This document shows positions 40,854 to 60,129 of a stretch of DNA of 64,000 nt, one piece after another. The stretch is from Ceratorhiza oryzae-sativae (lineage: Eukaryota; Basidiomycota; Agaricomycetes; Cantharellales; Ceratobasidiaceae). The notes below the pieces were generated by a model, which saw nothing but the letters and a program-made list of their open reading frames with translations, made no database searches and was not told the DNA's origin. Every line of letters starts with the position of its first letter. The first letter of the stretch is position 1. Where the stretch lies: assembly GCA_030998015.1 (NCBI GenBank), contig JARWMV010000087.1, positions 1-64,000 of the forward strand, read 5' to 3'. Made by a program: the position numbers and the translations under genes.

Positions 40854-40865
40854 CTTCCCCCCTTC
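40854..40865 (-). promoter_or_regulatory. Polypurine tract of the family-1 element
   Basis: CTTCCCCCCTTC on the plus strand, so GAAGGGGGGAAG on the element strand, directly next to the 3' LTR. This is the expected primer site for plus-strand DNA synthesis. Confidence 0.82.
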
Positions 40866-43657
40866 AAGGCACAGGGGTCCTGGGGTGCCTCTGGATGTGA
40901 CTTGACATGGTCAGCAATGAGTTCTGGTGCATTCACCAGGTCATCATAAGTTAACCATTGTTGCTTGTCATAGCCAAGCCATTTGACATAGTATTCGAAG
41001 GTGTTAGACCTTTTGTTGTATTGTGACTTTATGATCTGCTCTATTTCAAATTCTTCTTCTCCTTCTGGAGTTACCACAGGTGGAGGTGGGGGAGCTTGAC
41101 ATCCATAGGGATTGTCTTTATGTTTGGTCAGGAGTGAGACATGAAATACTGGGTGTATTTTCATGGTTACTGGCAAGTCCAGTTTGAAGGCGTGAGTGCC
41201 ATGTTGTGCTACCACCTTGAATGGTCCAACTCTCTTGTGGGCCAATTTCCTGGAGGCCTGTTGTGTGTGTATGTTCTTGGTGTTGAGCCAGACTTTGTCT
41301 CCCACCTTGATGGCTTCTGGGGTCTGATGCTTCTGATCATAGTATTCTTTGGTCCTCTGGTTTGCTAATTCCAGAGCAGCCTTGAGTTTGTCATGGCCCT
41401 TTTGAAGCCATTCTGCATGATTGTCTGCTAAGGGGAATTCTTGTTCCTCCTTGTCCCCAACTGCCAGTCTTGGATGGAAACTGTAGTTTGCAAAGAACAG
41501 TGATTTGCCAGTTGAGGCATTGACACCATTGTTGTAGGCAAATTCAGCCAGAGGTAAGAGTGAGACCCAGTTGTCTTGCTGATCTGATACATAGTGTCTC
41601 AGGTACCCTTCTACTACTTGGTTAGCCCTTTCAGACTGGCCATCTGTTTGGGGGTGGTATGCTGTGGAGTAGGATGGTTTTATATTCAGCCATTTGTACA
41701 GGTGCCTTAAGAATTTGGATGTGAAGTTGGGACCATGGTCTGAGATGGTTTTTCATGGTAACCCATGGAGTTTCCATACATAGGTTAGGAACAAGTTTGC
41801 ACAATCCATGGCACTGGCCTCTGACTGACATGGAATAAAGTGGACCATTTTTGTCAGGCGGTCCACAACTGTAAATATAGCATCGAACCCTTCTGAAAGG
41901 GGTAGCCCAGTGATCATATCATAGGTAATTTCCTCCCTAGGTTTTTCCAGTGCTGGTATTGGGTTTAGAACCCCTGGGGGAACCTGGTTACTGTGCTTGT
42001 TCCTAATACAGGATCCGCAATGTGTGACATATTCATTGACTGATTTTTTCATTGATGACCATGTATATTTGTGGTTTAACAATTCATATGTTCTGAACTG
42101 TCCTGGGTGTCCTGCAGCTGGGTTGTCATGACGGCTTTCAATGATCAGCTTGCAAAGTTCTTTGTTATTTGGGACGTAGATTTGGCCCTTGTATTGTAAA
42201 AGTCCTTTGTCCCATTCCCAGTTTTTGACTTTTTCATTGTTGTCTAGGGCTTTTAGCACTTTTGACAGGTGCTTGTCCCCTGGGATGGCATCCCTAATGA
42301 GTTGTTCCAGGTCATGGTCTGGTGTGATTGCTTGTAACCACAGAGATTTTAATTCCAAAAATTGGTTTTGTGTAAGCAGAGCTTGGCTCTCACCCCCCTC
42401 TTTAGGGATGTGCCTTGACAGCCTAGAGAGTATGTCTGCCTGGCCATTCTTTGCCCCTTCAATGTATAGAATCTTGAATTCGAACCTGGACAGGAACTTG
42501 TGCCATTGTGTAACTTGGCCATTCAGTGGCTGGTTTGTCTTCCAATATTCCAGATTCTTGTGGTCACAAACAATGTTTACCAGGTGTTCAGCCCCTTCTA
42601 GTAAGTGACGCCAGTGTTTGAGGGCTTTTATAATTGCCAGCATTTCCTTGTTGTAAATATTGTAGTTTCTTTCTGCTGGGACCATTGCTTTGGAATAGTA
42701 GGAGATTGGGTGAAGCATTCCATCTTCTCCATATTGCAATAATACAGCACCTGTGGCATAGCCTGAGGTGTCTGTTTCCAAAATAAATGGTTTGCTGGGT
42801 TCTGGCTGAATTAGGAGGGGGGCTTCTTTCAATTTCTGCTTCAGCAGGTTCCACACCTGATCCCTTTCTTCTGTCCATTCCCACTTTGTGTCCTTCTTGA
42901 CAAGTTTGTCAAGACATTTTGTGATTTTTGAGAAGTCTTTTATGAAGTGCCTTAACCAGTTTGCAAACCCCAACCCTTCCAGGACTTTGGTTGGGTTTGT
43001 AGGGGTTGGCCATTCAACAGCCTTTTCAACCTTGGCTGGGTCTACTTTAATTCCCTGGGGAGTCACTACTATTCCCAGGTAATCAACTTTGGTGATGTCA
43101 AAAACACACTTCTCCAAAGTGCAGTATAGGCCAGCCTTTTGGAGATGACACAGGACTTCTTTGACATGTTTGTCATGTTCTTCTTGGTTTTTGGAGAACA
43201 CTAATATATCGTCCATATAGATTACAACATAAATGCCCTCAATGTCTTGGAACTCTTCCCAGATCATAGCCATGAAAGTTCCCGGTGCATTCTTTTGGCT
43301 GAATTGCATGACTAAGGGCTTGTACAGCCCATATTTGGTCTTAAAAGCAGCCTTCCATTCATCTCCTTCCCAAATTCATATGAGGTTGAAGCCCCACTTT
43401 AGGTCAAACTTGGTGAATATCTTTGCTCTGCATAGGGTCTCCACAATATCATTGATGTGTGGGAGTGGGTACACATTGGAGATGGTCATTTCGTTTAGCC
43501 GCTGGTAGTCGATGCACATACACAGCTTCCCATTTTTCTTTTTAACAAATATAACTGGGGAAGCCATTGGTGACCTTGAGGGTCTAATGTGACCTGCTTT
43601 CAATTGGTGGTCTAGGGTTTTGTGCAGTTCTGCGTCTTCTTTGACACCCACACTATA

Positions 43658-45264
43658 CAGTTTGGGACAAAACTGCTTGCAGCAATCAAAGTTCTGACTT
43701 TGAACGCTAATAGCTTGAGACTTAGCACACAAGACTGCATGTATTTAGTACTGTTCGATAGCTATACATCTGAGCTACAAAATTAATATATATGTAACAT
43801 GTTTCATCATGTGGTCTCAGAGATAACCTTAAGACAAAACAGAAGGTACATGTGAGCAGTTTTGTCCCCAGTTTCATAATCTGCATGTTTTCCCTACCTG
43901 TTTGAAACTACTCAGTCTTGCGATCTGCAGTGTTTTTGGCAGCCTATGTATAGCATATATAGCGCATATAGCCTTGAGATCAATAACAAACCAGTCATCT
44001 AGGTATGCCCCCTCCACTCACTCAGGATCAAATCAACTCCATGCTTTCACTACTTGATTCTGGGCATAAACATTCTCAAATTCAAGCTAGACTGACAATT
44101 TCATCTGCATCTATTACAAAAATATGTGCTAGGTATTGCCCAGACCTCTGCAAATCAAAGGGTGGGCGTCCTTGCAAGCTGAATCCAACAGCAATTCGCC
44201 ATGCTGTTCGACTTGTAGCCAACCATAACTCAGTCTCCACCTGTGAGGCCACCCAATTGCTCTGCAATCTTACGGGACAGTCCATACATTGTAAAACTGT
44301 CTGTCGTGCACTGAAGGGGGCAGGTTTAAGGCCAGTCAAGGGCACTAAAAAACCAAGGCATACCCCACAGCAGATCCGTGATCAGATTGCATTTGCTGAG
44401 GCACACAAAGACTGGACAATGGAGGACTGGAAACAGGTATTATGGTCAGATGAGACAAAAATCAATCGGTTAGGGTCAGATGGGATTCACTGGACATGGG
44501 CTCGCCAAGGGGAAACACTCACAGATCGGCAGATTGTTCCAACTGCAAATTTTGGTGGAGGATCACTCATGTTTTGGGGGTGTATGGGATGGTCAGGAAC
44601 TGGCTTTGGGTGTTGTTTGGAGCGCACCTTGAACAAGGAGTTATACCTGGAGATTTTAGGTGATGAGCTTTCACGAAGCCTTGAGCTCTTGGGATTGGAG
44701 CCTGGAGAGGTGATTTTTCAGCAAGACAACGCCAGCTCCCATAAGGCAAATGTTTGCCTTAACTGGTTCAATGATCACAAAATTGAGGTAATGGAGTGGC
44801 CAGCCAACTCTCCAGACCTCAACCCAATTGAAAACCTTTGGGCAGAGCTTAAACAGCGCCTAGGCAAGTACGAAGCCCCACCTGCAGGGATCCTGGAGTT
44901 ATGGGATTGCGTCCAGGATGTCTGGAACCAATTTGGCAAAAACTACTGCCAAAAGCTTATAGAAAGCATGCCTAGGTGCATGGCTATGGTTTTGAAAAGG
45001 AAAGGAAAGGCGATTCCATATTAAATATCTCTGGACAGATATCTGGATTTTTGGGGACAAAACTGCTTGTATGCACATCTTGTATTGTTTTGCTCATATG
45101 TATGCGGTTTCACAATCAAGTATGCTTCATGTATATTTATTTTGTAGCTGAGATATAAGGCTATCAAACGGTGCTAAATACATGTGGTCGCATGCGCCGG
45201 GTCTCAAGTTATTAGCATTCGAAGTCTGAACTTTGATCACTGCGAGCGGTTTTGTCCCAAACTG
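43658..45264 (+). mobile_element. Tc1/mariner DNA transposon, apparently complete, inserted in gypsy pol
   Basis: 1,607 bp flanked by TA target duplications (43656-43657 and 45265-45266). The terminal inverted repeats start CAGTTTGGGACAAAAC and remain alignable for roughly 140 bp. The motif GGGACAAAACTGCTT also recurs internally at 43854-43870 (inverted) and 45052-45068, giving four potential transposase-binding sites. Joining the flanks at a single TA restores continuity of the host gypsy reading frame. It encodes an uninterrupted transposase. Confidence 0.93.
44005..45024 (+). CDS. Tc1/mariner transposase, DD34E (339 aa)
   Basis: Cut-and-paste transposase. The N-terminal ~110 residues carry two helix-turn-helix regions: HKHSQIQARLTISSASITKI and a second around residues 60-105 preceded by the GGRPCKL AT-hook-like basic patch. 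The catalytic triad is visible: Asp in WSDETKI (about residue 150), Asp in FQQDNASSHKA, and Glu in SPDLNPIENLW, 34 residues after the second Asp, which is the Tc1 spacing. Length of about 340 aa is typical. No stop or frameshift, and it lies centrally between the inverted repeats, so it could be functional. A related but truncated copy lies at 32243-32867. Confidence 0.93.
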   Translation: MPPPLTQDQINSMLSLLDSGHKHSQIQARLTISSASITKICARYCPDLCKSKGGRPCKLNPTAIRHAVRLVANHNSVSTCEATQLLCNLTGQSIHCKTVCRALKGAGLRPVKGTKKPRHTPQQIRDQIAFAEAHKDWTMEDWKQVLWSDETKINRLGSDGIHWTWARQGETLTDRQIVPTANFGGGSLMFWGCMGWSGTGFGCCLERTLNKELYLEILGDELSRSLELLGLEPGEVIFQQDNASSHKANVCLNWFNDHKIEVMEWPANSPDLNPIENLWAELKQRLGKYEAPPAGILELWDCVQDVWNQFGKNYCQKLIESMPRCMAMVLKRKGKAIPY

Positions 45265-45976
45265 TATATGGGGCCATGCCTTGGCTCAGCACCTGGTTTT
45301 AGGTCTATCTCCATGTCCCACTTCCTATGGGGTGGCAGTGGTTGGACATCATCTTCTTCAGCAAATATTTTCTTGAACTCCCTATATTTTGCTGGGAGCA
45401 AATCTAAAGAGTCCAGCTGGAGCTCCTTGGGTTCATTTGCTTGCACATGTAGGGGTTTTGTAATGCAGTGCTTCAAGCATATTGGCAAGTTGAACTTCAT
45501 ATCCTTTCCATCCCAATCAATGTCTGGGTTATGGAATTTGAGCCACAACATGCCCAGGACTAGGTCATTTTTGCCAACATTCACAATGTAAGCACTGAGG
45601 ATCTCTTGGTGCTCTTGAATGCACAACTCAAAGGTGCAGTAATGGGTCACAGACCCAGAGTCTATCTCCCTTCCATCAATTACCCTCAGTTTCTTGGGTG
45701 TTTTTAGGGTGATGGTAGGAATATGGTATTGTTTAACCAAATCTTCATGTATAAATACTGACATGGCCCCTGAGTCAATCATGGCCCATCCATTGAATTT
45801 TTTCATGTTATATGCAGACTTGTGTTTGGGGGTTACATGCAGAGGGAATGCATGAAAGAAAAACTGTAGTTGTGATTGGTTTCCTAACAACATACATTCC
45901 ATTTCCATATTTTTATTTTCATTATGCACATTTTGTAACATAGCACCCAAGACTGCCCCCCTGGCATGGTTTGAGC

Positions 45977-46604
45977 TCATTCTTTTACCAACTCATCATT
46001 GGTTGTTTCTACGTCCTCAACCACTGCCTTGTATCCTGACATCTTGGCTGAGGGGCATTTGGCAGCAATGTGGCCGTGCCCTCCACAGTTATAGCAGGTG
46101 TTTGTCCCCTTCCCTTTTCCTGTGCTATCCAGATCCATTGCATCTGGATCCTTTGCCTTGGGGGCTGCTGGTGGATGATTATCCTTCTTTATGTCCTTAA
46201 AGGATTCTTATATGTTAGCATTGCTGCCATTGTAGCAGATGGTTGGAACTGTCAAGCCCTTTGCGTTAGGCCTGATAGCTACAATTTGACCTTTTACAGC
46301 CCTGCCATCCTTAATCTTGTATACTTGTTCCCCATTCTTGAATTTCTCCTTTTGGGGAGTGCTTTGGGGGTTATTTGTCAGCCTACTGGTTGGGGCATTG
46401 TTGCTGCTGGACTTGTTACCCCCATGAGATGTCCTCTTGCTACTGAAAGAAATGAGGTGGCAGTCGATTTCCAGGGCCCGCTGTGTGAGCTGAGTGAATG
46501 TCTTTGTGTGGGGATCATAATTTTGGGCTACCATGCTGTCCATTACATCAGATGACAAACCATCATAGAACTGATCATGCATAGCTGCATCATTGTAGTT
46601 GAGC
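45977..46604 (-). pseudogene. Family-1 gypsy gag, C-terminal part with zinc knuckle
   Basis: Includes ALEIDCHLISF, a basic linker and a CCHC zinc knuckle CYNCGGHGHIAAKC near 46100 (CX2CX4HX4C), ending ELVKE with TGA overlapping the pol ATG. A frame break lies around 46205. The N-terminal part resumes at 57284 beyond the nested element. Confidence 0.85.
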
Positions 46605-46609
46605 CCAGT
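46605..46609. repeat. 5-bp duplication CCAGT, left
   Basis: CCAGT precedes the 5' LTR and recurs at 57279-57283 after the 3' LTR, marking the insertion of the Rep-bearing gypsy element into gag. Confidence 0.93.
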
Positions 46610-46699
46610 TGTTATGACCTGTCAAACGGACATAACAAAACAACCAAATATTTCTACAGATTTATGGCATTTTTCCTAAGCGGAACAAGCCATAAACAT

Positions 46700-47185
46700 G
46701 GTCACATGACCTTGGCGCTTAGCCGGCGCTTACGGTGGTTACCCTGAACTCGCTCCAGCATTTCTCTCCATTGTTACTTGGAGCGAGGAGCAAGTTGTCA
46801 CGTGATCTCCACGCTTACAGCAGGATCACGTGACCTCAGCGCCTACGGTGGTTACCCTGAACTCGCTCCAGTATTTCTCTCCCTTGTTACTTGGAGCGAG
46901 GAGCGAGTTATCACGTGATCTTGGCGCTTACAGCATGATCACGTGACCTCAGCGCCTACAGTGGTTACCCTGAACTTGCTCCAGCATTTCTCTCCCTTGT
47001 TACTTGGAGCGAGGAGCGAGTTGTCACGTGATCTTGGCGCTTACAGAAGGGTCACGTGACCTCCGCGCTTACGGTTGTTACCCTGAACTTGCTCCAGCAT
47101 TTCTCTCCCATGTTACTTCGAGCGAGGAGCGAGTTGTCACGTGATCTTGGCGCTTACGGCAGGAACACGTGACCTCAGCGCCTAC
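46700..47185 (+). repeat. U3 tandem repeats with paired CACGTG sites
   Basis: About four units of ~113 bp, each with TTACCCTGAACTxGCTCCAG, a TTACTTGGAGCGAGGAGCGAG block and mostly two (T)CACGTGA palindromes. The 3' LTR has only two units; the 226-bp LTR length difference equals two units. CACGTG is a typical bHLH target, so these may act as upstream activating sites. Confidence 0.85.
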
Positions 47186-47328
47186 CCCTCGGACCTTGCG
47201 CAGCTCTATAAGATTTGGAGCTGCACAAACTTAAGACAAACAATTACCTAACCCATAGTACTGTACATAACCTACACCTACTGCGGAGTGTGCTTAGATA
47301 ATACGTCCGCAGCCACCGCAGCCACAGG

Positions 47329-47337
47329 TATATATAA
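47329..47337 (+). promoter_or_regulatory. LTR TATA box
   Basis: TATATATAAGG starts 36 nt upstream of AGCTTGCTTTAT (47365-47376), the stretch complementary to the PBS. The spacing fits transcription starting at or just before that stretch. Confidence 0.7.
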
Positions 47338-47506
47338 GGAGGATAAAGCAAGACTGGACGCCTCAGCTTGCTTTATCTTGTCAACCACCATAGACCATAG
47401 CAAACACTGTAACTAGAACACTAAATACATACTGCATAGCACCAAACTGTAAACGCAGCCACTACTTAAGTGCTCCACAAGGGAGCCTCCAGAGGGTCAC
47501 GACATT

Positions 47507-47518
47507 ATAAAGCAAGCT
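47507..47518 (+). promoter_or_regulatory. Self-complementary primer-binding site
   Basis: ATAAAGCAAGCT lies two nt after the 5' LTR and is perfectly complementary to AGCTTGCTTTAT at 47365-47376, near the predicted RNA 5' end. No tRNA 3'-end complement (TGG...) is present. This matches the self-priming layout known from Tf1/sushi-type elements. Confidence 0.65.
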
Positions 47519-47624
47519 CTTAACTTAACTAGTGGCAAACATAAGTATACTACACAGATACTAAGGGCTGAGTACACAAGAAAACCAGCTAAACTCCTGT
47601 GATACATAGAGACATAAAGAAACT

Positions 47625-49458
47625 ATGTCACAGAGACCACAAACTCAATCTCAAAGCAGAGTGGCAAATAGTAGGCCACAATCACCCAAACCCATTGCTT
47701 CCCCAGAGGCTGAAGGTAACCCAGATGAGACCCTCCAAGGAATGCCAGGGGGGTTGCCACAAAACCCACAACCAGTGGCTCAACCCAACCCCACTCAGGC
47801 CCCCATCCTGGGAGGGGAAATAGGGGGAATACCACTCCGCAGCCCTCAACCGCCAATTCACCTGATAAATCCAGACCCAGAAGATACCTCAAATCCAGAG
47901 AGGGATGAGGTGGAAGATATGACCCGAACCATATACGAACAAGGCACAGCCTTGGCGGAAGAGGCAAGGACACAACCCCAGCCAGGTCCCGGAACCATAG
48001 CCACTGCCAACCCTATTCACACCATTGCCACAGCCATCAGGGCGGGGCTCAAGGAACTTAGAGACAATAATCATAGGGAACTAGAAAAGGCAATCACAGG
48101 TATAAATCAGTGTCAAATATCACTAACCCGACAAGAAGGAAACGTGGACTGGATGGTAAGGTCAATGGAAACATCCAACAAAAATGTCCTCTATGTGGCA
48201 AAGAACCAGGACGACCTAAAAGCAGAAATGGGGAACCTGATAAAAGAATTAAAGGACATCTCCATGGAAATAAACCGGGTACTGGGAATGCAAGAGCGAA
48301 AGCTGAAAGCTTAGAGAAGAAAACGAAAACACAGGGGAGATCCTAATCGCACTAGAACAACGGGTAACCGATCTAGGAAATGAGCTCCGGAAAACAACTG
48401 AAGCAGGAAGGCCAAGGGAAAGGACAGAAGAAACCAGGGGAAGAACTAGGGTGGTCATAGGAAGCCCCTCACGATCCCCCTCAGCCTCCCCAGTACGAAC
48501 ACCCTTTCTGGGAAGAACCTTCCAGGCTGAGTCCACAATAAGACCCCGAACAGAACCTCCATCCCAAGCAAACCAACCTACCCTTGCTGCAAACCACACT
48601 CCTAAGGAGGCGAGACTAGGGAGACCCAGCAAATTTAATGGGAAAAAGGGGAAGGAAGCAGAGAACTTCATAATCAGCATGGAACTTTTCTTTGCTGACT
48701 ATGACGAATCAGCCTTTGATGACCGAAAAAAGATATCTGCTGTGCTAATGAACATGGAGGATGGGGAAGCAGCAAACTGGGCACAACCTTACCGCCGGAA
48801 ACTACTAGCAGGCGAACACACAGGTATTCTTGCATCCTGGAAGGATTTCAGGAAGGGATTCCTGGATGCTTTTAATGACCCAGTCATAAAGGAAAAGACC
48901 ATCCGGAAACTAAGGAAATTAACACAGACCAAGAGTGCATTGGATTATGCTACCCAATTCCGGATCCTGATCCAAGAGGTAGACTGGAACCAGGAAGCCC
49001 TCAAGGACCAATTCAGGGAAGGGTTAAAACCCGAAGTACGACAAGAGATCTTAAGGATTGAAGTACTGGCAAATGAGGCTGAAGGTCCATCATATACCTT
49101 AGATCAATTAATTGACTTTGCCTGCAAAATGGATGACATGCAGTTTGCAAACCAGAAAATGAATACAAGGACCAGCAACTCATCAAATTCAACCTGGGCA
49201 CCAGCGAAATACAAACAAGGGGGGAACAAGCCTTTAGGGACCAGCGGCAAACAGGGAAATACCCAAACCAACAACATGGTAAGGATACCAAACAGTGAAA
49301 AGGACAGGCGAAGGAAAGAAGGACTCTGTATCAAATGCGGTAAATCAGGGCATGTCCTGAAGGAGTGCCGAGGCCAGTGGACCTACGACAAAGCTAAGAT
49401 ACAAGGGAAGGCCAGCAGACAAGTTGAGGAAGAAAGCAGCTCTGAGTTGGAAAACTAA
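47625..49458 (+). pseudogene. Gag of the Rep-bearing gypsy element, broken by a 7-bp duplication
   Basis: Structural protein of the retrotransposon particle. The first frame (47625-48314) encodes a Pro/Gln-rich N-terminus and a helical segment. The second (from about 48311 to 49458) contains the retrotransposon gag core (WKDFRKGFLDAFNDP, LDYATQFRILIQEVDW) and a CCHC knuckle CIKCGKSGHVLKEC near the end. The two frames meet at a tandem GAAAGCT GAAAGCT (48298-48311); one unit is in excess and shifts the frame into an immediate TAG. Apart from that the gene is open. Confidence 0.88.
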
Positions 49459-49475
49459 TTGGTCCTGCCACTTCC

Positions 49476-52400
49476 ATGTTGGAGGACCCCAATATAACCC
49501 CTACCGCAGATGTATGTTACCTCAAGAAGTCTAGTAATCAATCAATAATATACACTACGGTAGAGGGAATCATGGAACCAGCTAAGACGCTGATTGACTC
49601 AGGATCTTCAACCAACTTCATCGATAAGGCCTATTCAAGGGAAAAAGGGATCCCAACCACTCCCCTCAAACACAAGAAATCAATTGTGGCCATTGATGGG
49701 AATGAAATCAAGGATGCCATAGAAGAAAGGGCAGAACTAAACATCGAAGTGGAAGGGAAGACACTAAAATGCTCCCTTTATGTAATGACCCTAGGTGACA
49801 CAGACATAGTCCTAGGGAAAGAATGGCTTGAAGAAGCAGAACCTATCATAGATTGGAAAGACCTTACCATCTCATACCCAAACAAAATCAAGGCAAGGGC
49901 AGCAAGTGAAGGCCTACAAATCCCAGAAGAATTTAGGGATTTTGAAGACCTATTTGGGGAGGAAGGTTTCCGAGAACTTCCACCCCACCAAGGTAACCTA
50001 GACTTCAAAATGGACCTGATCGAGGGAGCAGAGCTGCCAAAGCCTGCAAAGAGGTACAGTATGTCGCCAGCAGAAACAAAGGTGCTCAGGGAGTACCTAG
50101 AGGAGGAACTAAGAAACGGGAAAATAAGGCCCAGCCAGCCAGTTGTAGCTGCACCCTGCTTCTATGTGAACAAAGCAGATGGAGGGCTTAGGTTGGTAGT
50201 CGACTACCGTAAGATGAATGACATCACCAAGCCAGACAGGTTTCCACTTCCAATCCAAATAGAATTGATTGAGAGACTGAAGGACGCAACCATCTATTCA
50301 AAAATGGATGTTCGATGGGGGTTCAACAACATCAGGGTAAAAGAGGGAGACGAATGGAAAACAGCTTTCAGGACAGGAGAAGGCCAGTTTGAATGCTTGG
50401 TCATGCCATTCGGAGTAAAAGAAGGACCAAGAACCTTTACCAGGTTCATGATGGAAAAGTTCTGTGATATAATAGACGATTATGTGGTAATCTACATGGA
50501 CGATGTACTAGTGTTTTCCAGAAACAGGGAAGAACACGTACAACATGTCAGGGAAGTGTTAAGAAGAATGAGGGAAAACCACCTCTTCCTCAAACCACAC
50601 AAGTGTCAGTTCTTTGTGAAGGAGGTAAGCTTCATAGGAATTGTCATATCCCCAGAAGGGATATCGATGGAAAAGGAAAAGGTAAAGGCAGTTCTAGAAT
50701 GGCCAGAACCTAACACAGTAAAAGAAGTCCAAGCCTTCCTAGGCTTCGTGGGGTTCTATAGAAGGTGGATAGAGAAGTTTAGTACCTTAGCCAAACCCCT
50801 CACAGATCTCACCCAAAAAGATGTCAAATTCCTGTGGGAAAGAAAACAACAGGAAGCATTTGAAGCTATCAAAGAAGCAGTAGCAAGAGAACCAGTCCTG
50901 ATCCACCCAAACCCAAACAGGCCATACATACTGGAAACAGACGCCTCAGGAGTGGCCATGGGGGCAGTACTAAGCCAAAAGGGTGATGACAACCGATTGC
51001 ATCCAATTGCCTTCCTATCGAAGAGCTTCACCCCACCAGAGAAAAATTATGACACCTACGACAAGGAGTTGCTTGCAATTGTTAGGTCCTTAGAGCACTG
51101 GAGGTTATACTTAGAAGGGACAGAGGAACCTATTGTGATATACACTGACCATAGGAACCTCCAGTACTGGCAAAATGCCCAGATGTGGAATAGAAGGCAT
51201 GCCAGATGGTATCTCACTCTGGCACCCTTCAATTTTCAGATTGTGTATAGACCAGGGAAACTCTCACAGAAGCCAGATGCCCTTTCCAGAAGGAGCGACC
51301 ATGGGGATACCCCTATGGAACCACAGATCATGATTCCAGAAGAAATGTTCATAGGTTTCATGGCAGAAGTACAGGGGAATTTCTGGGAAGAGCTTAAAGA
51401 AGCTCAGGAAGAAGACGAATCTATCAGATCCTTAAGGCTGAGTGTGGCAAATAAAGAACAACTACCGCCCTCAGTACAGAAGGAATTTAGACGGTATGAA
51501 ATGAAGGAGGGCCTATTAAGGTATGACGATAGGCTCTACATCCCAGATGACAAGGACTTGAGGTTGAGTCTCCTTGAGGAGTGCCATGACGCCCCAGTGG
51601 CAGGTCATCAGGGACAAGCCCGAACACTAGAATTACTATCAAGGGATTACTATTGGCCAGGAATGAAGGCCCAAGTAAACCGATGTGGAATCTTGTGAAA
51701 CATGTCAAAGAAGCAAAGGACACAAACAAGGCACTCCCCTGAAGTCCTTACCAATCCCATGGAAACCATGGGCAGATGTCGCATATGATTTCATCGTCAA
51801 ATTACCTGTCTCAAAGGGGTACGACAGTATCTTGACAGTTGTAGATCGCTTCTCCTGGCAGGCCCATTTTGTACCATGTCTGGAGAGCACCAATGCAGAA
51901 GAACTGGCAGAAATATTCATAAGGGAAGTATGGAGACATCACGGGACCCCAGAAACCACTGTCTCAGACCGAGGGCCAACCTTTAACAGCCAATTCCTAA
52001 AGCCCTATACAAAGGAATTGGGACAAAGCCCAGATTCTCCACTGCTTTCCATCCAGAAACAGATGGTCTGTCGGAAAGGACAAATCAATGGGTAGAAGGG
52101 TTCTTAAGAACCTTCTGCAATTATAGACAAGATGATTGGGTAAAATGGTTACCCATTGCCGAATTCTGCCATAACAACCACGTAAATGCTACAACAGGAC
52201 AAACCCCATTTGAAACAGTATATGGAAAAAACCCAAGATGGGTTGTCCGAGAGGGAGAAGAACCATCTGAGGCACCCGCTGCAGACAACATGCGTAATCA
52301 AATGGAAAAGGTATGGGATGAGGCAAGAGCCTCAATGGAATTACACCAACAAATGGAAAAGAAAGGGAGGGAATTCAAGGTAGGAGACAAGGTTTGGCTG

Positions 52401-52884
52401 CTCCTAACAAACCTCTCGTCCAAGAGACCCTCCAAGAAACTGGACAACCGAAAAGGGGGGCCCTTTGAAATCACAGAAAAGATCTCATCCCATGCATATC
52501 GCCTGGACCTACCTAAAACATACGTGTACACAATGTATTCCATGTAAATCTCCTTTGCCATTCACAGAAGATAAAGACTTCCAAAGAAGGCAGGCCAAAC
52601 CACCACCAATCATAACGGAAAAAGGAGAGGAGGAATACAAGGTGGACCACATTGCAAATTATGAATGGCGGAATGGCAAGCTGTTTTACCAAATCAGATG
52701 GAAGGGCTACGACCCAATAGAAGACACAATGGAACGTGCCAGCAAGTTTGCTGACATGAAAGAGGTTCTAAATGACTTGCAAAGGCGCTTACCAGACGCA
52801 CCAATGCCAGTCAAGACAAGTCAGCACTCAGGTGACTCGAAAGGCAGGCCAAAGAGAACCAAACGAGGATCTGGAAAGCTTTAA
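49476..52884 (+). pseudogene. Pol of the Rep-bearing gypsy element: protease, RT, RNase H, integrase, chromodomain; frame-broken
   Basis: The open section 49476-51698 holds protease (LIDSGSSTNFID), RT with VVIYMDDVLVFSRN, RNase H (LETDASGVAMGAVL, YTDHRNLQYWQ) and the integrase zinc-binding H-H part (HQGQARTLELLSRDYYWPGM). The frame then changes near 51690 (integrase CxxC, DRFSWQAHF, SDRGPTFNSQF), again near 52040 and again near 52530, before the C-terminal chromodomain-like part (YQIRWKGYDPIEDTMERASKF). Each change looks like a loss or gain of one or two nucleotides. RT and protease active sites are intact; integrase would not be made from this copy as a single protein. Confidence 0.9.
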
Positions 52885-52937
52885 AAAGAGCCATCCAGGA
52901 TACCCAAGAAAGGCCAGAGCCTGCTCTACCACCTCAC

Positions 52938-53790
52938 TTGCACCACAACACACCTGCGAAACCCCAAAACATGCCTTTCGTCACTCACCCAGTCGCACAT
53001 CCCAACCGTTACACCCCACTTGCTGAAAATCAGGTGGCCCCACTTCGGCAGCCACCCACCACCAGGCGGCCAGCACCCTACCCTGGCAGGGAAAATCGTC
53101 CTAAACCAGGGATGTACTGCTCCAGTGTGGAAGACGCCCAGAGGTACGCTGAACGACTGTTGCCAGGGGCTAACCTAGTATACATCCCAAAGAAGTTAAG
53201 GGATGAAAGGAACTGGATTGACGATGACAAGTACCTGGATCCCAGGTTAGGGGTCCTGACATGGCATGGAAGCCGGAAGCCAACAACAAGAAACGCCTTG
53301 TTAAGAACACCGATGTATGTGTCGACAATATCGTGGGACCAACAGTCGACGTGGTGACCAAGGCAGCAAGACAACAGAGGAGGGCCACAGGCCAAATGGC
53401 AGACGGAGGGGACTGGGAGGTGGAGCGCCGGGCAAAGGCATTGCTGGAAGAATGGAAGTTGACACCAGCTGCACCGTATGTGGGACTGCTCGAAGCAACT
53501 ACCACTGATGAGATGTTTACTGCTATCAGGACAAAGCAGGCAAACATGAATGACTTCCGAAATTGGGTGAAGGTGCACCCAAACAAAAACACCAATTACG
53601 ACACTGATATGACAAGCCTTACATCAAGCCTAGAATCACTGGTCTGTGGCTGAGGAAGAAGCCAAGCCAGAAATAAAGGAACCCACCCTGGACCCAGCTG
53701 CGGAGGAAGCCAAACAGGACTGGGACGGTGGGAAAACGAGCTTGTCGAAGCTCTGGAGGAGGTGCCACTGTTGGAACCAACCCCCATATG
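52938..53790 (+). pseudogene. Accessory sense ORF after pol, unknown function, frame-broken
   Basis: Open frames 52938-53357, 53261-53653 and 53646 to about 53790 can be read as one decayed gene. Visible content: a Pro/His-rich start, PGMYCSSVEDAQRYAERLLP, DDDKYLDPRLGVLTW, then KAARQQRRATGQMADGGDW and an acidic C-terminus. I recognise no domain. Its position between pol and the antisense ORF suggests an extra retrotransposon gene; whether it was ever expressed is unknown. Confidence 0.4.
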
Positions 53791-53872
53791 ACCACTTTGC
53801 CTCCCACAAATTGTCTCCCGAATGTATAAGAGTTTTTATTTTCTTTTACACACCAAACTTAATACATTTCTT

Positions 53873-54409
53873 TTACTCTCTATTTTTACGTTTGCCCTTG
53901 AGGGGCCGGGTATAGGGCTTCTTGCCCCTGTTATCCTTCTTATTGGTCTGAACAACTGACCAGGTAGTGGGCTGCAGCCAAGGAGCCTCCCCCCCTGGGA
54001 AGTCGGCCATGTAGTTCTGGAAACACCCAGAACCAGACGCTGCAAAGGGCAAAGCCTCATCAAACAAGGGAGCAGAGCCCTCCTCGAAGAATTCGGCAAG
54101 AGCAGCCTGGTGAGAGCTCCTCAAAGGACTTGTCCTGATCAACGAGCGCCCAGACACGCTCAAGGGTGGCCTCATGGGCCCGACCATCAAGGAGGATGTG
54201 CTCTTCTACAGAACAAGTTAGCTACGTGAGAATGACAAAGAACGAACACACATACCTGGCACCCCACAGAAGAACCAGTCCCCAACACCTTGATAGAAGT
54301 CTTCAAGGGAGGCGTCGCACACAGCATCACAGTAGGCGCAGTACTCCCCCTCAGGGAGAGACCAGCAGGTGCAGTCAAGGGGATTGTAGTTAAGGGAAAT
54401 AACACGCAT
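53873..54409 (-). pseudogene. Antisense spliced ORF beside Rep, basic C-terminus, unknown
   Basis: Minus-strand gene model: exon 1 54409-54256 (MRVISLNYNP, then a Cys-rich stretch with CTCW and CAYC), a 50-nt GT-AG intron 54255-54206, and exon 2 from 54205 (EEHILLDGRAHEATLERVW). The frame breaks near 54115 and resumes in another frame to the stop at 53873, with a very basic end (GKKPYTRPLKGKRKNRE). An intron in antisense orientation would survive retrotransposition, because the sense RNA cannot splice it. Divergent from Rep across about 600 nt. No known family; a role as nucleic-acid-binding or capsid-like protein is only a guess from the basic tail and the ambisense layout. Confidence 0.45.
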
Positions 54410-54528
54410 AGTAAAGAACGGGATGAGGAAGGAAAACAACAAAACCACAAACATTAAAAAATCACGGTGCAACACAATAACTTGCACAAACATCAAAACA
54501 AGGACTGGTCAGGTGACACCAACAGACA

Positions 54529-54719
54529 CGTGACCATCTGCCAGAAAACAAACAACAAAGCATGGGAATCACATGACCTAGCCTAGTCACATGACCACCT
54601 GCCAGAAAACAAACAACAAAGCACAGGAATCACATGACCTAGCCTAGTCACGTGACCACCTGCCAGAAAAACAAACAACAAAGCACAGGAATCACATGAC
54701 CTAGCCTAGTCACGTGAAT
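54529..54719 (+). repeat. Three 61-bp direct repeats upstream of Rep
   Basis: Three near-identical units of 61 bp, each with CTGCCAGAAAACAAACAACAAAGC, ATCACATGACCTAGCCTAGTC and a CACRTGAC motif. CCAGAAAA starts at 54541, 54602 and 54663. They lie between the divergent antisense ORF and Rep and could be promoter elements or Rep-binding iterons. Confidence 0.8.
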
Positions 54720-54745
54720 ATACACTATCCCCTAACTACCGGAGG

Positions 54746-54767
54746 GGTCGGAGAGGGGGCACCGACC
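54746..54767. other. GC-rich hairpin between repeats and Rep
   Basis: GGTCGG, a 10-nt loop AGAGGGGGCA, then CCGACC. It sits about 250 nt upstream of the Rep ATG. The loop is not the TAxTATTAC nonanucleotide of geminivirus origins, so an origin role is speculative. Confidence 0.35.
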
Positions 54768-55013
54768 GAAGTGGGGGAGCAGAGGCCCCGAGCGTAGCAA
54801 GGATCAAGGCCGACGCGGAGGAATGGATGGGAGGGCACCCCTCGGAGATGCGTCATCACCGAAATAAGGTCATGTGATCACAACAAATGCAAGACGGAGT
54901 CATGTGACAATCAAAACAGACCTTGCAGCTTATATAGACAAGCACAAGGCCCGAGATAACCCGCACTCTCATGCTCTCTTCCCAGTCCCCAAATACCTCT
55001 AAAACTGTAAACG

Positions 55014-56300
55014 ATGCAAAGCGGAAATGGATCGAACGTGGCAACACCCCAGCCAAGTGGATCAAGCAAAGGGCAGAGGTTGGCGTCGCCATTGCCAGCG
55101 CCCTCGGTATCAAGCCGAGCCCCCTCGCCCGCTTCTATGCAGCCTACGCCGATGGATCGAGGGTCCGAAGAGCTGACCGAAACCGCGCCGGCCCCTCGGT
55201 TCCACGTCCAGACCAGGGTGGTGCTGCTGACCTGGTCGAAGCTACATGATCAGCCCTCAAGTGGGCTTGTCGCCCAATACAAGGCGTTCTGCCGCCAACG
55301 GCCAAATCATTGGGCGACTTTGGTGGTGGTGGAACGCCACAACCCCGAGGAACCGAACTACGACCCAGCCCGGCCCCTCCATGTCCACGCCCTCTCCATC
55401 AGTCAGGAGCGGAAGGGTGGCTGGAACACCCAGAACACCCGGTTCTGGGACTTCGAGGGGCAACACCCCAACATCCTGCCGAAGGACCTCAAGGACGGAC
55501 CAGGAGGCAACCCAGCAAGGGATGCCTTCAACTATCTCTGGAAGGACGTTGGAGCTAATGGCAAGGAGATAGAGGACCTGATGGCAGGGGACCTAACCTT
55601 GGAAAGGTTGGAGGAGATTTTGGTAAAGGGAAAGGGCAGAAAAAGGTCAAGGATGGAGGCAGACTTGGAGGATGGGACAGAGATTGTTGCCTCAGCAACA
55701 AAACAGGAGTACTACCAGGCGTTCAAGCGCCTCCGCCCCCTCCAGATGGTGACAACGTGGAACTCGGTACGAGCATATGCCGAGTACACATACAAGGAAG
55801 ACCAGGGTTGCATGCCTGCAATCCCTGTGGAGTTAGAGGTCCCGGAAGACCAGGAGCACATTGACCGAGCAGACAGATGGTTTGCCGAGGAGGTCGAGAA
55901 GAAGGGAAGAGGGGTGCGCCATCGCATCCTGGTGATAGAAGGAGAAACTGGAACAGGGAAAACGGCATATGCACGATCCAAGGGCTGCCACAGCCAGATG
56001 TGCAATGTGTGGAATATGGGCAACTTGTCGGAAGATGCCAACATTTGGATCCTGGATGACATGGTCCAGTCGAACGGGAAGTACTCGCTCAAGGCCCTGA
56101 GCCAGTACAAGGCAGACTTCACAGGCAGGTACGCGCACGTGAAATCGATGAAGGTACGGCCAACAGTCATTCTGGGAAATAGCCGGTCGGCAATCATGAA
56201 ATGTTGGTCAGACATAGAGGGGGAAGAAGGGGACTTATGGGTATCAAGAAATGTGGAATGGGTGTATGCAGGAGGAAAGCCATTCTTTGTATTCCCTTAG
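55014..56300 (+). CDS. CRESS-type replication initiator (Rep): HUH endonuclease plus SF3 helicase (428 aa)
   Basis: Rep proteins of circular ssDNA viruses nick and join the origin for rolling-circle replication and unwind DNA. After a Ser/Pro-rich N-terminus of ~60 residues come motif I (RVVLLTW, 68-74), motif II HVH (123-125), a GRS-like RFWDFEGQHPNI (143-154) typical of geminivirus/genomovirus Reps, and motif III YLWK (174-177) with the nicking Tyr and the Lys. The SF3 helicase has Walker A GETGTGKT (310-317), Walker B IWILDD (344-349) and motif C with Asn in VILGN (385-389). A basic GKGRKRSR patch lies at 206-213. All key residues are present and the frame is open, while gag and pol of the same element are broken. 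It is sense-oriented and intronless. Horizontal capture from a fungal genomovirus-like agent is the simplest reading. Confidence 0.93.
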   Translation: MQSGNGSNVATPQPSGSSKGQRLASPLPAPSVSSRAPSPASMQPTPMDRGSEELTETAPAPRFHVQTRVVLLTWSKLHDQPSSGLVAQYKAFCRQRPNHWATLVVVERHNPEEPNYDPARPLHVHALSISQERKGGWNTQNTRFWDFEGQHPNILPKDLKDGPGGNPARDAFNYLWKDVGANGKEIEDLMAGDLTLERLEEILVKGKGRKRSRMEADLEDGTEIVASATKQEYYQAFKRLRPLQMVTTWNSVRAYAEYTYKEDQGCMPAIPVELEVPEDQEHIDRADRWFAEEVEKKGRGVRHRILVIEGETGTGKTAYARSKGCHSQMCNVWNMGNLSEDANIWILDDMVQSNGKYSLKALSQYKADFTGRYAHVKSMKVRPTVILGNSRSAIMKCWSDIEGEEGDLWVSRNVEWVYAGGKPFFVFP

Positions 56301-56417
56301 AATAATTTATGGTACTGTACAACTTCTGCTATGCCCATCCAAACAGTTGGGGCTTTCTGAGAAGAAGCAGACAAATCCTCACCCCTAAATAACCTCCACA
56401 ACAAAGAAAAGAAAAAC

Positions 56418-56544
56418 AATCTCATGTAACAGAGAGGTTAAGGGGTCTAGCCTGACTCAGCCTGACCTCATCGAACGATACTGAATCAGCCGAAAGGTCG
56501 TTGGTTCGAGTCCAGTGCCCTTAACCTCCTTGGTGCATGAGATT
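56418..56544 (+). ncRNA. tRNA-like hairpin with Pol III B-box
   Basis: Two nested perfect stems enclose this segment: AATCTCATG/CATGAGATT (outer, 9 bp) and GAGGTTAAGGG/CCCTTAACCTC (inner, 11 bp). The interior contains GGTTCGAGTCC (56503-56513), an exact match to the tRNA B-box consensus, and TAACAGAGAGG upstream is close to an A-box. It does not fold into a normal cloverleaf by eye, because extra bases separate the T arm from the outer stem. It may be a tRNA-derived insert or a structured RNA element of the retrotransposon. Confidence 0.4.
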
Positions 56545-56595
56545 CCTTTTGCATAAGGAACTAAACCATGTCTCGAGGTCCCCCAAGACATGTCC

Positions 56596-56609
56596 AAAGG
56601 GGGGGATAA
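56596..56609 (+). promoter_or_regulatory. Polypurine tract of the Rep-bearing element
   Basis: AAAGGGGGGGATAA immediately precedes the 3' LTR, as required for plus-strand priming. Confidence 0.8.
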
Positions 56610-57278
56610 TGTTATGACCTGTCAAACAGACATAACAAAACAACCAAATATTTCTACAGATTTATGGCATTTTTCCTAAGCGGAACAAGCCATAAACAAG
56701 GTCACGTGACCTCGGCGCTTAGCCAGCGCTTACAGTGGTTACCCTGAACTCGCTCCAGCATTTCTCTCCATTGTTACTTGGAGCGAGGAGCGAGTTGTCA
56801 CGTGATCTTGGCGCTTACAGAAGGGTCACGTGACCTCCGCGCTTACGGTTGTTACCCTGAACTTGCTCCAGCATTTCTCTCCCATGTTACTTGGAGCGAG
56901 GAGCGAGTTGTCACGTGATCTTGGCGCTTATGGCAGGAACACGTGACCTCAGCGCCTACCCCTCGGACCTCGCGCGGCTCTATAAGATTCGGAGCCACAC
57001 AAACTTAAGACAAACAATTACCTAACCCATAGTACTGTACATAACCTACACCTACTGCGGAGTGTGCTTAGATAATGCGTCCGCAGCCACCGCAGCCACA
57101 GGTATATATAAGGAGGATAAAGCAAGACTGGACGCCTCAGCTTGCTTTATCTTGTCAACCACCATAGACCATAGCAAACACTGTAACTAGAACACTAAAT
57201 ACATACTGCATAGCACCAAACCGTAAACGCAGCCACTACTTAAGTGCTCCACAAGGGAGCCTCCAGAGGGTCACAACA
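56610..57278 (+). repeat. 3' LTR of the Rep-bearing gypsy element (669 bp)
   Basis: Same ends as the 5' LTR (TGTTATGACC to GGGTCACAACA) and highly similar throughout, with the same TATA box and 11-bp inverted repeat. It has only two U3 tandem units. Confidence 0.93.
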
Positions 57279-57283
57279 CCAGT

Positions 57284-58042
57284 CAAGTATAGGTTGAACA
57301 GAGTGAGGTAGTCTTGGACTGTCTTGGATTGTTTCAGTTTCCACCATTTGTTGCAGTTATTTTCGGTACAGTTCAAGTCCCCATATCAGGTGGTGAATTC
57401 CTGCCAAAACAGGTTGGCATCATGAAGCCATGGGATTGCAGTTCCAGGGTTTAAGATTTCAAATTCCTTGTAGGAGTTGACCCATTCAGCTGCAGACCCT
57501 TTGAGATAAGAGGTGATGAAGGTGACCACTTGATCAGCCAAATGCCCACTCATGTTTGTATTGATGTATCAGGTACATGCGATTCTGAATGAGATGGTGT
57601 CTTCATGTTTTGTGCCATCAAATTTTTGAGGGGTGGCCATCTTAACTTTTGCAGTTGACCCACTAGAGGGAGCAGGTGCTGTTGGTTGTGGTTGGGCTGC
57701 ACTGGAGGGAGCTAGTACTTGAGCAGCACCCAAGCCACCTGTGGAGGTGTTGATTTGTGCTTCAATGCATGTGATAGTGGTTTGGAGAATGGCTAACATC
57801 CCCACTAGGTTGTTGACATTGGTGGCTAGTCTGGCTACATCTGCATCAATTTTTGTCTGATTGGTGGTAAGTTTGGTCTTGAGTGAGTCCGTGTAGGTTT
57901 TATTATTGTGTTTGACATCTCTGATATCATTTTGGAGATTGTTGGTTTGCTCTTGCAGTTTGTCCATTGATTGAAGCATATAAATGACCTTATCTCTGTC
58001 AGACATATTTGCCCAAGCAGGGGCAGGGGTTGGTGATGCCAT
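57284..58042 (-). pseudogene. Family-1 gypsy gag, N-terminal part
   Basis: Starts at the ATG at 58042 (MASPTPAPAWANMSDRDK) with a coiled-coil-like, Gln/Asn-rich segment, then a Pro/Ala/Ser-rich linker and TPQKFDGTKHED, typical of the entry into a gypsy gag core. A frame break occurs near 57570; the remainder to 57284 reads in another frame up to the CCAGT insertion site. The zinc-knuckle end is at 45977-46604. Confidence 0.8.
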
Positions 58043-58138
58043 TTCAGAAGGAATTCAAGTAGATTTTTAAAGGTGACAGAGACAGTAAGGAAGTACAGGG
58101 AATTGGGAGTTATTTTGATAATAAAGAATTTCTGTTCC

Positions 58139-59001
58139 TCACACAAGTCTATAGATTTCAAAGTTTCCAATCCCTTTGAATCTTAACCACTTGTTGTCCA
58201 AGTCCCAACTTTTGGTGTCTTGACAACAGTATGGGCACTCCACCCTCTTCAGTTTAGTTTGGTCCCAAAGGAGTGCTTCCTTGGGCAATTTGGGCTGCCG
58301 GAAGGGGTGCTTCTTCCTGAATTGGCAAGCTTGTGCCACTTAGAAAGGTGGGGTGAGGAAGGTCTGACAGTGTTGAGAAGATGGGGAAGGTGTACTTGTG
58401 GGGTTCAATTGTTTCTCAGACTATAGCTTCTAGTCTGAGATGGTCTTGGAGGAGGGATAGGTAGTCCTCCTGGTGTTTGCACAAACACTCAGTTAAGTAT
58501 GCGCAATGGGACTTGGCTTTGTGAAAAATTTCCCAAGTTTCTTCATATTTATTTCGGTAATAACAGTACCTGTCTTGGAAGTTTTTGATGGTATTTAACA
58601 GGTGACAAAGGAGTTGTTGGCCAAGGTTCTCCAGCTTATAGCTGGTTGCAGGGGATGGTGTAGTAGTAGAGGAATTTGTCCTTCTTAGGACAATAAGGGC
58701 AGTGCGCTGGGAAGGTGGCTCTGTTCACCCGATGGCAGATTTTGCACTCAGGGGCACCTGGCTCAGTAACAAAGGCTTGTTGGGCATGTCCAACTCTCTG
58801 GGGGTGGACTTTGACAATTACTACTTGATTAAAATTGATGTGCCCAGCCTCTTCAAGGATACTTTCAACCAAATTGAGGGTGAAGCAGTGGATAGACAGG
58901 TGTCCAAACCACCCACACAGATGGCAGCACTGGTCTTCTGTAAAAGGTTGTGCCACTTGAGGGCCATGCATTCCATCAGAGATGTACTTGAGCAAGAGCA
59001 A
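58139..59001 (-). pseudogene. Leader ORF of the family-1 element with Cys/His motifs
   Basis: Between the 5' LTR and gag, minus-strand frames 59001-58636 and 58339-58139 look like pieces of one decayed gene. The first contains CHLCGWFGHLSIHC (CX2CX4HX4C zinc knuckle), then CKICH and AHCPYC, another possible zinc site; the second contains ECPYCC. A stop after IPCNQL and a frame change separate them. Gypsy elements do not normally encode a separate zinc-knuckle protein ahead of gag. Function unknown; perhaps an RNA-binding or regulatory factor. Confidence 0.5.
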
Positions 59002-59307
59002 GATAAAAAGAAAAATAGACCCTTTCCTGAGTCTATTGGAATAGGAAGGTGACCTCTGTTGCTCAACTACTTAAGGGCAATGAGCAACCCCACCTCTTGT
59101 CAATGGAAGAGATTAGAGAACCAAAGCTTGTTATGACATGTGAGGGACCTGGCTATGCAAGGTTTCACAGAGGCACGTATAGGGCAACAATGTCTTGTGG
59201 CTGTGGATAGGTGGAGTGGGATTGGGGAAGGCAACAGGGAGTTATCTCAAGACTACACCAATGGCATTCCAGATGTATCCCAGACAACACTGAGACTTAC
59301 AATTGTC

Positions 59308-59321
59308 AAGAACTTGACCTG
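59308..59321 (-). promoter_or_regulatory. Self-complementary primer-binding site of the family-1 element
   Basis: On the element strand AGGTCAAGTTCTTG follows two nt (TC) after the 5' LTR. Its complement CAAGAACTTGACCT is present in the LTR itself (plus-strand AGGTCAAGTTCTTG at 59392-59405), downstream of a TATATAAAC TATA-like box. This again is the Tf1-type self-priming layout. Confidence 0.65.
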
Positions 59322-59322
59322 A

Positions 59323-59700
59323 TGTCGACAACAACAAGTCAGGCAACAAGGAAAATAGTAAGAAAGAAAGAAAGAACTTGTATTCAACAAGAGGTCAAGT
59401 TCTTGAGGAGTCCTCTGCAAACTTGACCTGGTTTATATACATAGTACAAGCCACATCATAACAAACAAGTCTGTACAGTGAGTCACAACTGATAAGAGAT
59501 AGAAGCAGTAGAAGTGACTGTGGAGCTGTGGAATTTCACATTGGAGTTGAAATACATCTCAGTTATTGGTCCAGAACATCCCCTGAATCACATGACACAG
59601 ATATACCATAAAAGGCAGGTATGTTTTGAAGATGGTCTCATAAAATGTAATAAATTGAGAAAATATTGTAGAGTGGATATATGTGTGTCAGTTCATGACA
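59323..59700 (-). repeat. Family-1 gypsy 5' LTR
   Basis: 378 bp from TGTCGACAACAACAAG to GTTCATGACA (plus strand), followed by the TTGTT duplication at 59701-59705. Confidence 0.93.
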
Positions 59701-59760
59701 TTGTTGTTGTTGACCATTGTTGATGCATTCCAGAATATTCTGTTGATGTGGCACCACTTT

Positions 59761-60129
59761 TGTCATGAGCTGACATGCATATATCCACTCTATAATATTT
59801 TCTTGATTTATTACATTTTATGAGATCCTTTCAAAACATACTTGCCTTTTATGGTATATCTGTGTCATGTGATTCAGGGGATGTTCCAGACCAATAACCA
59901 AGATGTATTTCAACTCTGATGTGAAATTCCACAGTTCCGCAGTCACTTCTATTGCTTTTATCTCTTATTGGTTGTGACTCACTGTACAGACTTGTTTGTT
60001 ATGATGTGGCTCATATCATGTATATAAACTGGGTCAAGTTCACAGAGGACTCCTCAAGAACTTGACCTCTTGTCAAATACAAGTTCTTTCTCTCTATTTT
60101 CCTTGTTGCCTGACTTGTCATTGTTGACA
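59761..60129 (-). repeat. Family-1 solo LTR, opposite orientation
   Basis: 369 bp from TGTCATGAGCTGACATGC to CATTGTTGACA, the reverse complement of the neighbouring LTR. Flanks ACTTT and AATTT are a 4-of-5 match to a target duplication. It interrupts the family-2 LTR that hosts the nest. Confidence 0.85.

Follow-up and report, generated by a model that had tools for sequence, protein, structure and literature searches.

The window, the whole stretch of 64,000 nucleotides that was analysed, contains a Ty3/gypsy chromovirus that spans positions 46610-57278. Its retroelement features are as follows.

46605-46609 (no strand): left target-site duplication, CCAGT
46610-47504 (+): 5' LTR, 895 bp, U3 with tandem 113-bp repeats
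47329-47339 (+): TATA box of the LTR promoter
47365-47376 (+): 12 nt complementary to the primer-binding site; presumed RNA 5' end
47507-47518 (+): primer-binding site, ATAAAGCAAGCT, starting two bases past the end of the 5' LTR
48451-49458 (+): gag (Ty3 capsid, with a weak zinc-knuckle match; Pfam)
49476-51698 (+): pol, with protease, reverse transcriptase, RNase H and integrase zinc finger, its frame broken at the end here (Pfam)
51685-52095 (+): integrase core in another frame (Pfam rve, E = 0.00033, under its cut-off)
52465-52884 (+): chromodomain (Pfam)
56596-56609 (+): polypurine tract, adjoining the 3' LTR
56610-57278 (+): 3' LTR, 669 bp, with two hairpin units
57279-57283 (no strand): right target-site duplication, CCAGT

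The LTRs, target-site duplication and polypurine tract that characterize a Ty3/gypsy chromovirus are thus all present, and gag, protease, reverse transcriptase, RNase H, integrase and chromodomain were found by Pfam, with the integrase zinc finger above its cut-off and the integrase core below. A Tf2-1-like SH3 domain in the integrase C-terminus was matched in a related copy. The earlier note had claimed that both LTRs and the CCAGT duplication could be placed exactly, and they are indeed found at the positions above. The two LTRs are 97.6% identical (16 mismatches over 669 aligned positions) and differ in length because the number of U3 repeats differs; AAAGGGGGGGATAA directly precedes the 3' LTR. 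The 12 nt complementary to the primer-binding site are located 36 bp downstream of the TATA box. Such complementarity between primer-binding site and LTR is the arrangement of Tf1/sushi-type self-priming, and, judging from its sequence, the element has this arrangement.

Two other classes of element were considered and rejected. A Helitron, which would have no target-site duplication, an SF1 helicase and no reverse transcriptase, is ruled out since the duplication and reverse transcriptase are present and the ends are LTRs, and a TIR transposon is ruled out by the LTR ends and the duplication. No transposase was found among the ten element ORFs scanned with Pfam. The window element is not intact, because pol and a further ORF are broken; the split of pol between frames indicates that this copy is probably no longer functional as an element, although its Rep-like gene is open.

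The element interrupts another gypsy chromovirus (40841-46600 and 57569-59001, both on the minus strand), in which Pfam identifies reverse transcriptase, RNase H, integrase, a Tf2-1-like SH3 and a chromodomain. An empty site occurs in L027, which holds another copy of the interrupted repeat: its match to the window reaches 46609 and starts again from 57288, with four bases between the match ends, as one unduplicated target would give. Among the matches listed from the two Rep searches described below (full query and first 149 residues), none lies in the interrupted chromovirus. A DDE_3/Tc3-type transposase ORF is found within the pol of the latter (44005-45024), and large imperfect inverted repeats, with arms of 171 nt and 76 nt, occur at 59460-60000.

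The Rep-like gene and its probable descent

Between the pol/chromodomain region and the polypurine tract, the element carries an open Rep-like gene, whose recognizable motifs are listed here.

55014-56300 (+): Rep-like gene, 428 aa, open ORF
55380-55388 (+): HUH motif II, HVH, aa 123-125, both His invariant in all 21 gapless copies
55440-55475 (+): GRS-like motif, RFWDFEGQHPNI, aa 143-154, between motifs II and III
55533-55544 (+): HUH motif III, YLWK, aa 174-177, Tyr and Lys invariant in the same 21 copies
55941-55964 (+): Walker A, GETGTGKT, aa 310-317
56046-56060 (+): Walker B, WILDD, aa 345-349
56166-56180 (+): motif C, VILGN, aa 385-389

The translation confirms the previous description of an uninterrupted 428-codon gene with HUH motifs, a GRS-like segment, Walker A and B, and motif C. 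Motif I was read from the translation as LLTW at aa 71-74, and the order of the motifs is I, II, GRS-like, III, Walker A, Walker B, C. Conservation was checked in all 21 gapless Rep copies, including those bearing stops, whereas a set of 14 proteins comprises stop-free copies only. The Gly and Lys of Walker A and the Asn of motif C are invariant in the 21 copies, the last Thr of Walker A being altered in L013 and L037. In Walker B, one Asp is altered in the old copy L038 and the other in the old copy L037. The GRS-like motif was compared with the general GRS consensus; its first Arg varies in 5 of the 21 copies, and F, D and HPNI are invariant.

Similarity to known Rep proteins is marginal. 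With the whole window Rep, the geminivirus Rep profile PF08283 (Gemini_AL1_M) gives E = 0.027, second to the unrelated PRMT5_TIM (0.016). With the C-terminal half, PF08283 becomes the best Pfam match (E = 0.0053, model positions 13-106 of 107), PRMT5_TIM being hardly worse at 0.0069. The scores of PF08283 for the window Rep are 15-17 bits, against a curated cut-off of 24, and it is found at E ≤ 0.1 in 3 of 14 Rep copies. The catalytic domain PF00799 gave no match at E ≤ 10 with the domain alone, the whole-genome search having had no positive control, and no Pfam SF3 helicase profile matched Rep, though Walker A, Walker B and motif C are present and conserved.

A protein search of Rep had been proposed beforehand and was run against PDB, viral, phage, plasmid and profile sets, among which the sub-threshold PF08283 match is the best relevant one. 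No significant homologue outside its own genome was found among PDB sequences, IMG/VR viral contigs, phages and plasmids. In the PDB sequence searches, the one low E-value belongs to a repeat protein, with no single stretch passing alone; PHROGs and NCBIfam gave weak ATPase-type matches only, tblastn in phages and plasmids gave no Rep relative, and one viral-contig search gave five matches, on contigs of 11-148 kb. AlphaFold models from the single sequence were unreliable (pLDDT 38 and 54) and were not used as evidence; Foldseek with a low-confidence domain model returned nothing at E ≤ 0.001 and no recognized HUH protein among the best 50 in either library.

The name "CRESS-virus-type" that the earlier note gave to this gene therefore holds in part: it agrees with the motif order and with the sub-threshold PF08283 match in the right place, and is weakened by the missing PF00799 match and the lack of a significant outside homologue. 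Based on the motif order and this one Pfam match, the protein is probably a strongly diverged CRESS-type Rep. Alternatively, it might be an HUH-SF3 protein of another mobile lineage, such as a plasmid or a TIR transposon like that of Tuber, not directly derived from a CRESS replicon. The marginal similarity to the geminivirus Rep profile would fit such an origin, as would the existence of geminivirus-like TIR transposons in fungi (PMC3198968). Nevertheless, we consider it decidedly unlikely, given the Gemini_AL1_M match in the correct order and the GRS-like motif; according to PMC7468197, GRS occurs in geminiviruses and genomoviruses and is absent from the cruciviruses surveyed there.

Rep in the other copies of the element

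All genome searches were made in one 48.8-Mb assembly, of the same genome as the window. That the host is a fungus is supported by 28 Fungal_trans matches, and a search for hydrophobins, which had no positive control, gave no match. The full Rep query gave 99 rows at 80-100% amino acid identity (98 of 253 candidates scored), of which 29 are full length and stop-free and 70 interrupted or partial, and the first 149 residues gave 150 matches (150 of 201 candidates scored). The stops in Rep are mostly TGA, as expected if they arose by later CpG deamination. Two more distant Rep matches, at G000:C7:195800-196246 and G000:C240:21736-22017 (57% and 70% identity), may belong to other Rep-bearing families.

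The linkage of Rep to the element was followed from three sides. Among the best 60 of 1431 pol candidates, Rep lies at most 5.2 kb downstream on the same strand in 46 and at 5-17 kb in 10, while 4 are without a listed Rep, one of them because its contig ends nearby; with the shorter full-query Rep list instead, 27 of the 60 have Rep within 4.5 kb. The 10 copies with a distant Rep are likely nested insertions, as seen directly only in L027. Downstream of a marker taken from 52700-53200, Rep occurs at 1.7-2.3 kb in 38 of the 40 copies scored (of 149 candidates), the remaining two having Rep at 3.1 kb in one case and no Rep near on the same strand in the other. Finally, all of the 20 Rep loci of ~10 kb run into the LTR of the element, and 14 are colinear with the window element through pol. 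The others show inserts (L017 and L019), a break within pol (L022), an internal deletion (L023) or rearranged upstream parts (L027 and L028). These figures apply to the candidates scored (60 of 1431 for pol, 40 of 149 for the marker, 98 of 253 for Rep), distant Rep-less gypsy families lying outside the survey.

A later insertion of the Rep block into one gypsy copy is ruled out by this linkage. The proposal that Rep is a genuine gene of a Ty3/gypsy element has been borne out, as other copies carry it at the same place with respect to pol, marker and LTR, and we regard the gene as a strongly supported part of the element.

The copies were divided into subfamily A (the window and 12 loci, i.e., 13 copies), subfamily A2 (7 loci, 4 of them profiled along their length), and B, a single older copy (L038). 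From gag as far as Rep codon 166, A and A2 hardly differ, except for an alternative block at ~53.3-54.1 kb, which occurs in A copies too, and for the variable 61-bp repeats. In the remainder of Rep their identity falls to 82-88%, and in the 200-bp bin behind it, in the 3' UTR, to 60-78%. This mosaic suggests that Rep may travel with the 3' end of the element by template switching between co-packaged RNAs.

Over 20 coding sequences, we count 88 fixed differences between A and A2, all from codon 167 on, with 71 in third, 11 in first, and 6 in second codon positions. The codons that differ are synonymous in 66 cases and replacements in 16, whereas placing the same substitutions at random, in a neutral simulation, gives on average 20 synonymous and 58 replacement codons (3 of those stops), with a maximum of 32 synonymous codons in 500 runs. 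The NG86 dN/dS of Rep is 0.098 between A and A2 (0.25 in the N-terminal half and 0.046 in the C-terminal half), 0.30 between A and B, and 0.18 between A2 and B, B being one copy. The higher values within subfamilies, 0.38 in A and 0.22 in A2, fit neutral decay after insertion. A truncated copy (L028), two gapped copies (L037 and L039) and three frameshifted ones (L040-L042) were kept out of these counts. Rep is under purifying selection: dN/dS among copies, which the earlier note had set as a possible refutation of its reading, is well below 1.

These values bear on the idea of Rep as a passive passenger, descended from a viral or transposon sequence that had inserted into a single gypsy copy and multiplied with it. 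The many interrupted or partial Rep rows would be in line with such a passenger, but the remaining rows are full length and open, the stops are mostly of the type predicted by later CpG decay, and the strong synonymous excess between the subfamilies lies beside a strongly diverged non-coding neighbour. A neutral passenger is refuted by the 66 synonymous codons compared to about 20, unless the Reps of A and A2 accumulated their differences outside the element, and we consider the passenger explanation extremely improbable. Rep looks like a working gene of the retroelement.

Other conserved segments and candidate sites for Rep

Four further segments of the window element deserve mention.

46749-47126 (+): four tandem U3 hairpins (46749-46787, 46862-46900, 46975-47013, 47088-47126), candidate Rep origin
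52938-53653 (+): remains of ORF3 (~300-aa frame), broken in the window copy
54481-55013 (+): region upstream of Rep, with three 61-bp repeats (54524-54707), eight octamers, and a TATA-like box at 54930
56434-56528 (+): 3' UTR block resembling a tRNA or pol III boxes, retained in both A and A2

ORF3, a frame of at least 300 aa between chromodomain and Rep, is open in 13 of the 21 copies examined (e.g., L020:4153-5109 and L038:707-1663) and had no Pfam match in the two copies searched. Its average dN/dS between copies is ~0.2-0.3. It exists in two versions, 64-80% alike at the DNA level over its end, and the dN/dS groups are not cleanly split by allele. Between ORF3 and Rep, a possible spliced antisense gene (53850-54450, minus strand) diverges from Rep; if coding, it would give an ambisense layout as in ssDNA viruses.

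The tRNA-like block is present in the window and in 18 loci (L010-L020, L023-L025, L028, L039, L041, L042). In the window it has a perfect end stem of 11 bp (GAGGTTAAGGG/CCCTTAACCTC), and it contains a perfect B-box-like GGTTCGAGTCC, this motif having been part of the search pattern. The block is preserved between A and A2 though ~30 bases in its middle and its flanks differ. ARAGORN (window and block) and Rfam (46000-60000) gave no match. It is possibly a pol III promoter, a tRNA mimic, or an RNA signal.

The U3 hairpins of the window have the stem CTCGCTCC / GGAGCGAG, and their loop ends in ..GTTAC next to the 3' arm. They were found in 22 of the 23 sources scanned, with 64 units in total, L037 giving no match; across sources the arms are CTCGCTCCAG / CTGGAGCGAG or a G-U variant, and their variation is mostly C-to-T decay and not compensatory. 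The nonanucleotide of CRESS origins also has TTAC as its end, adjoining the 3' arm. The U3 loop, of ~19 nt, does not contain TAATATTAC, and its end is TGTTAC, with the core TATTAC unmatched; the likeness to a CRESS origin is short and could be chance. By eye, the A2 LTR of L024 (8585-9463) has a second perfect hairpin, GGCGCTTA...TAAGCGCC, in each U3 repeat, which the window LTR does not have.

A second feature links U3 with the region upstream of Rep, where the ATG follows the TATA-like box by 84 bp. In the window element, octamers of the TCACGTGA type (TCACRTGA/TCAYGTGA) are confined to these two regions: there are 8 in the 533 bp upstream of Rep, 8 in 757 bp of the 5' LTR, and 4 in 531 bp of the 3' LTR, against a background of 12 in 53 kb of flanking sequence. 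The same two clusters are found in the five other 10-kb copies checked, with one extra octamer inside Rep in L018, L024, and L026, and one in unmatched or flanking sequence in L009 and L020. The octamer could simply be a host bHLH site.

Possible role of Rep and comparison with known systems

The explanation that we tentatively favour, at somewhat less than an even chance, is a self-priming chromovirus with a standing Rep gene after pol, whose product acts on the element's own unintegrated DNA. The position, linkage, copy number and selection of Rep are the parts of this explanation that were observed directly. Most likely, a single capture from a CRESS-type replicon would have given rise to Rep prior to the split into subfamilies, and the gene would be driven by its own promoter region, which has the octamer in common with U3. 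After reverse transcription had brought linear and LTR-circle DNA into the nucleus, Rep would bind U3 and use its HUH tyrosine to nick at the tandem hairpins, and its SF3 helicase would then unwind the DNA. Unintegrated DNA could thus be copied or extended into more integration substrates, and Rep would be inherited as the genes of the pol region are, by retrotransposition and template switching. The U3 hairpins and octamers would offer a place for Rep to act and LTR circles a circular template, from which we infer its action on the element's own DNA. The more specific possibility of a dual-mode element, in which reverse transcription is followed by Rep-driven rolling-circle amplification from origins duplicated in the LTRs, is on balance unlikely.

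Rep could also be a selected DNA-binding regulator of U3 and of its own upstream repeats, which would tune transcription or push the host toward DNA synthesis favouring integration, without replicating element DNA. The dense occurrence of one octamer in U3 and upstream of Rep, its absence elsewhere in the window element, and the recurrence of both clusters in five other copies are consistent with such a regulator. Nevertheless, the octamer may instead be the site of a host protein, and the nuclease Tyr, His, and Lys and the Walker A Gly and Lys are invariant in all 21 copies, none of which a mere binder needs. Conservation of the nuclease residues speaks for an enzymatic role over mere binding, and we regard pure regulation as rather unlikely.

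Finally, Rep might serve as a defence of the element or of its host, hindering the replication of related ssDNA mycoviruses or plasmids. Endogenized viral genes are sometimes kept for interference with related viruses, and Rep is under selection here. However, the collections searched, in which fungal viruses are few or absent, yielded no exogenous relative, and the retention of the gene by a selfish element, in an unchanged position while A and A2 diverged, speaks for a role at the level of the element. We regard protection as very unlikely.

Among mobile elements, those that use reverse transcription and the ssDNA replicons that encode Rep form distinct branches. A high-copy retrotransposon family in which Rep works and is maintained by selection would demonstrate a stable union of the two replication modules, and would hint at the fate of unintegrated LTR circles in one lineage or more. 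The reading of solitary "endogenous Rep" genes from fungal genomes would change as well, because some of them may sit in retroelements.

No Rep-bearing LTR retrotransposon was found in the open PMC literature, as judged from titles and the starts of abstracts among the matches listed, subscription papers being mostly outside this collection. The available text of a plant survey (PMC7758297) contains neither retrotransposon nor LTR, and geminiviruses appear in PMC4112212 only in a reference.

The closest relatives of the host element are the Tf1/sushi chromoviruses of the Ty3/gypsy type, with which it shares gag, the order PR-RT-RH-INT, the chromodomain, the self-priming primer-binding site, the 5-bp target-site duplication and, from a related copy, the Tf2-1-like SH3 in the integrase C-terminus. 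We know of no Rep gene, ORF3, or U3 hairpin array in Tf1/sushi elements.

The geminivirus-like TIR transposon of Tuber melanosporum (Liu et al. 2011, PMC3198968) also combines a geminivirus-like Rep with tens of genomic copies in a fungus. According to the available text, it differs by its 37-bp TIRs, its transposase ORFs, the lack of an obvious target-site duplication, and an interrupted Rep, and the word "retrotransposon" does not occur in its main text. Compared to geminivirus and genomovirus Reps, the protein described here has the same motif order (I-II-GRS-like-III-Walker A-Walker B-C) but is longer (428 aa, with an extra low-complexity N-terminus), has no PF00799 match, and is encoded by a retroelement, with no capsid gene recognized beside it. 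Helitrons likewise have an HUH nickase and a helicase within a transposon, whereas the element described here combines SF3-type motifs with LTRs, a target-site duplication, and a reverse transcriptase.
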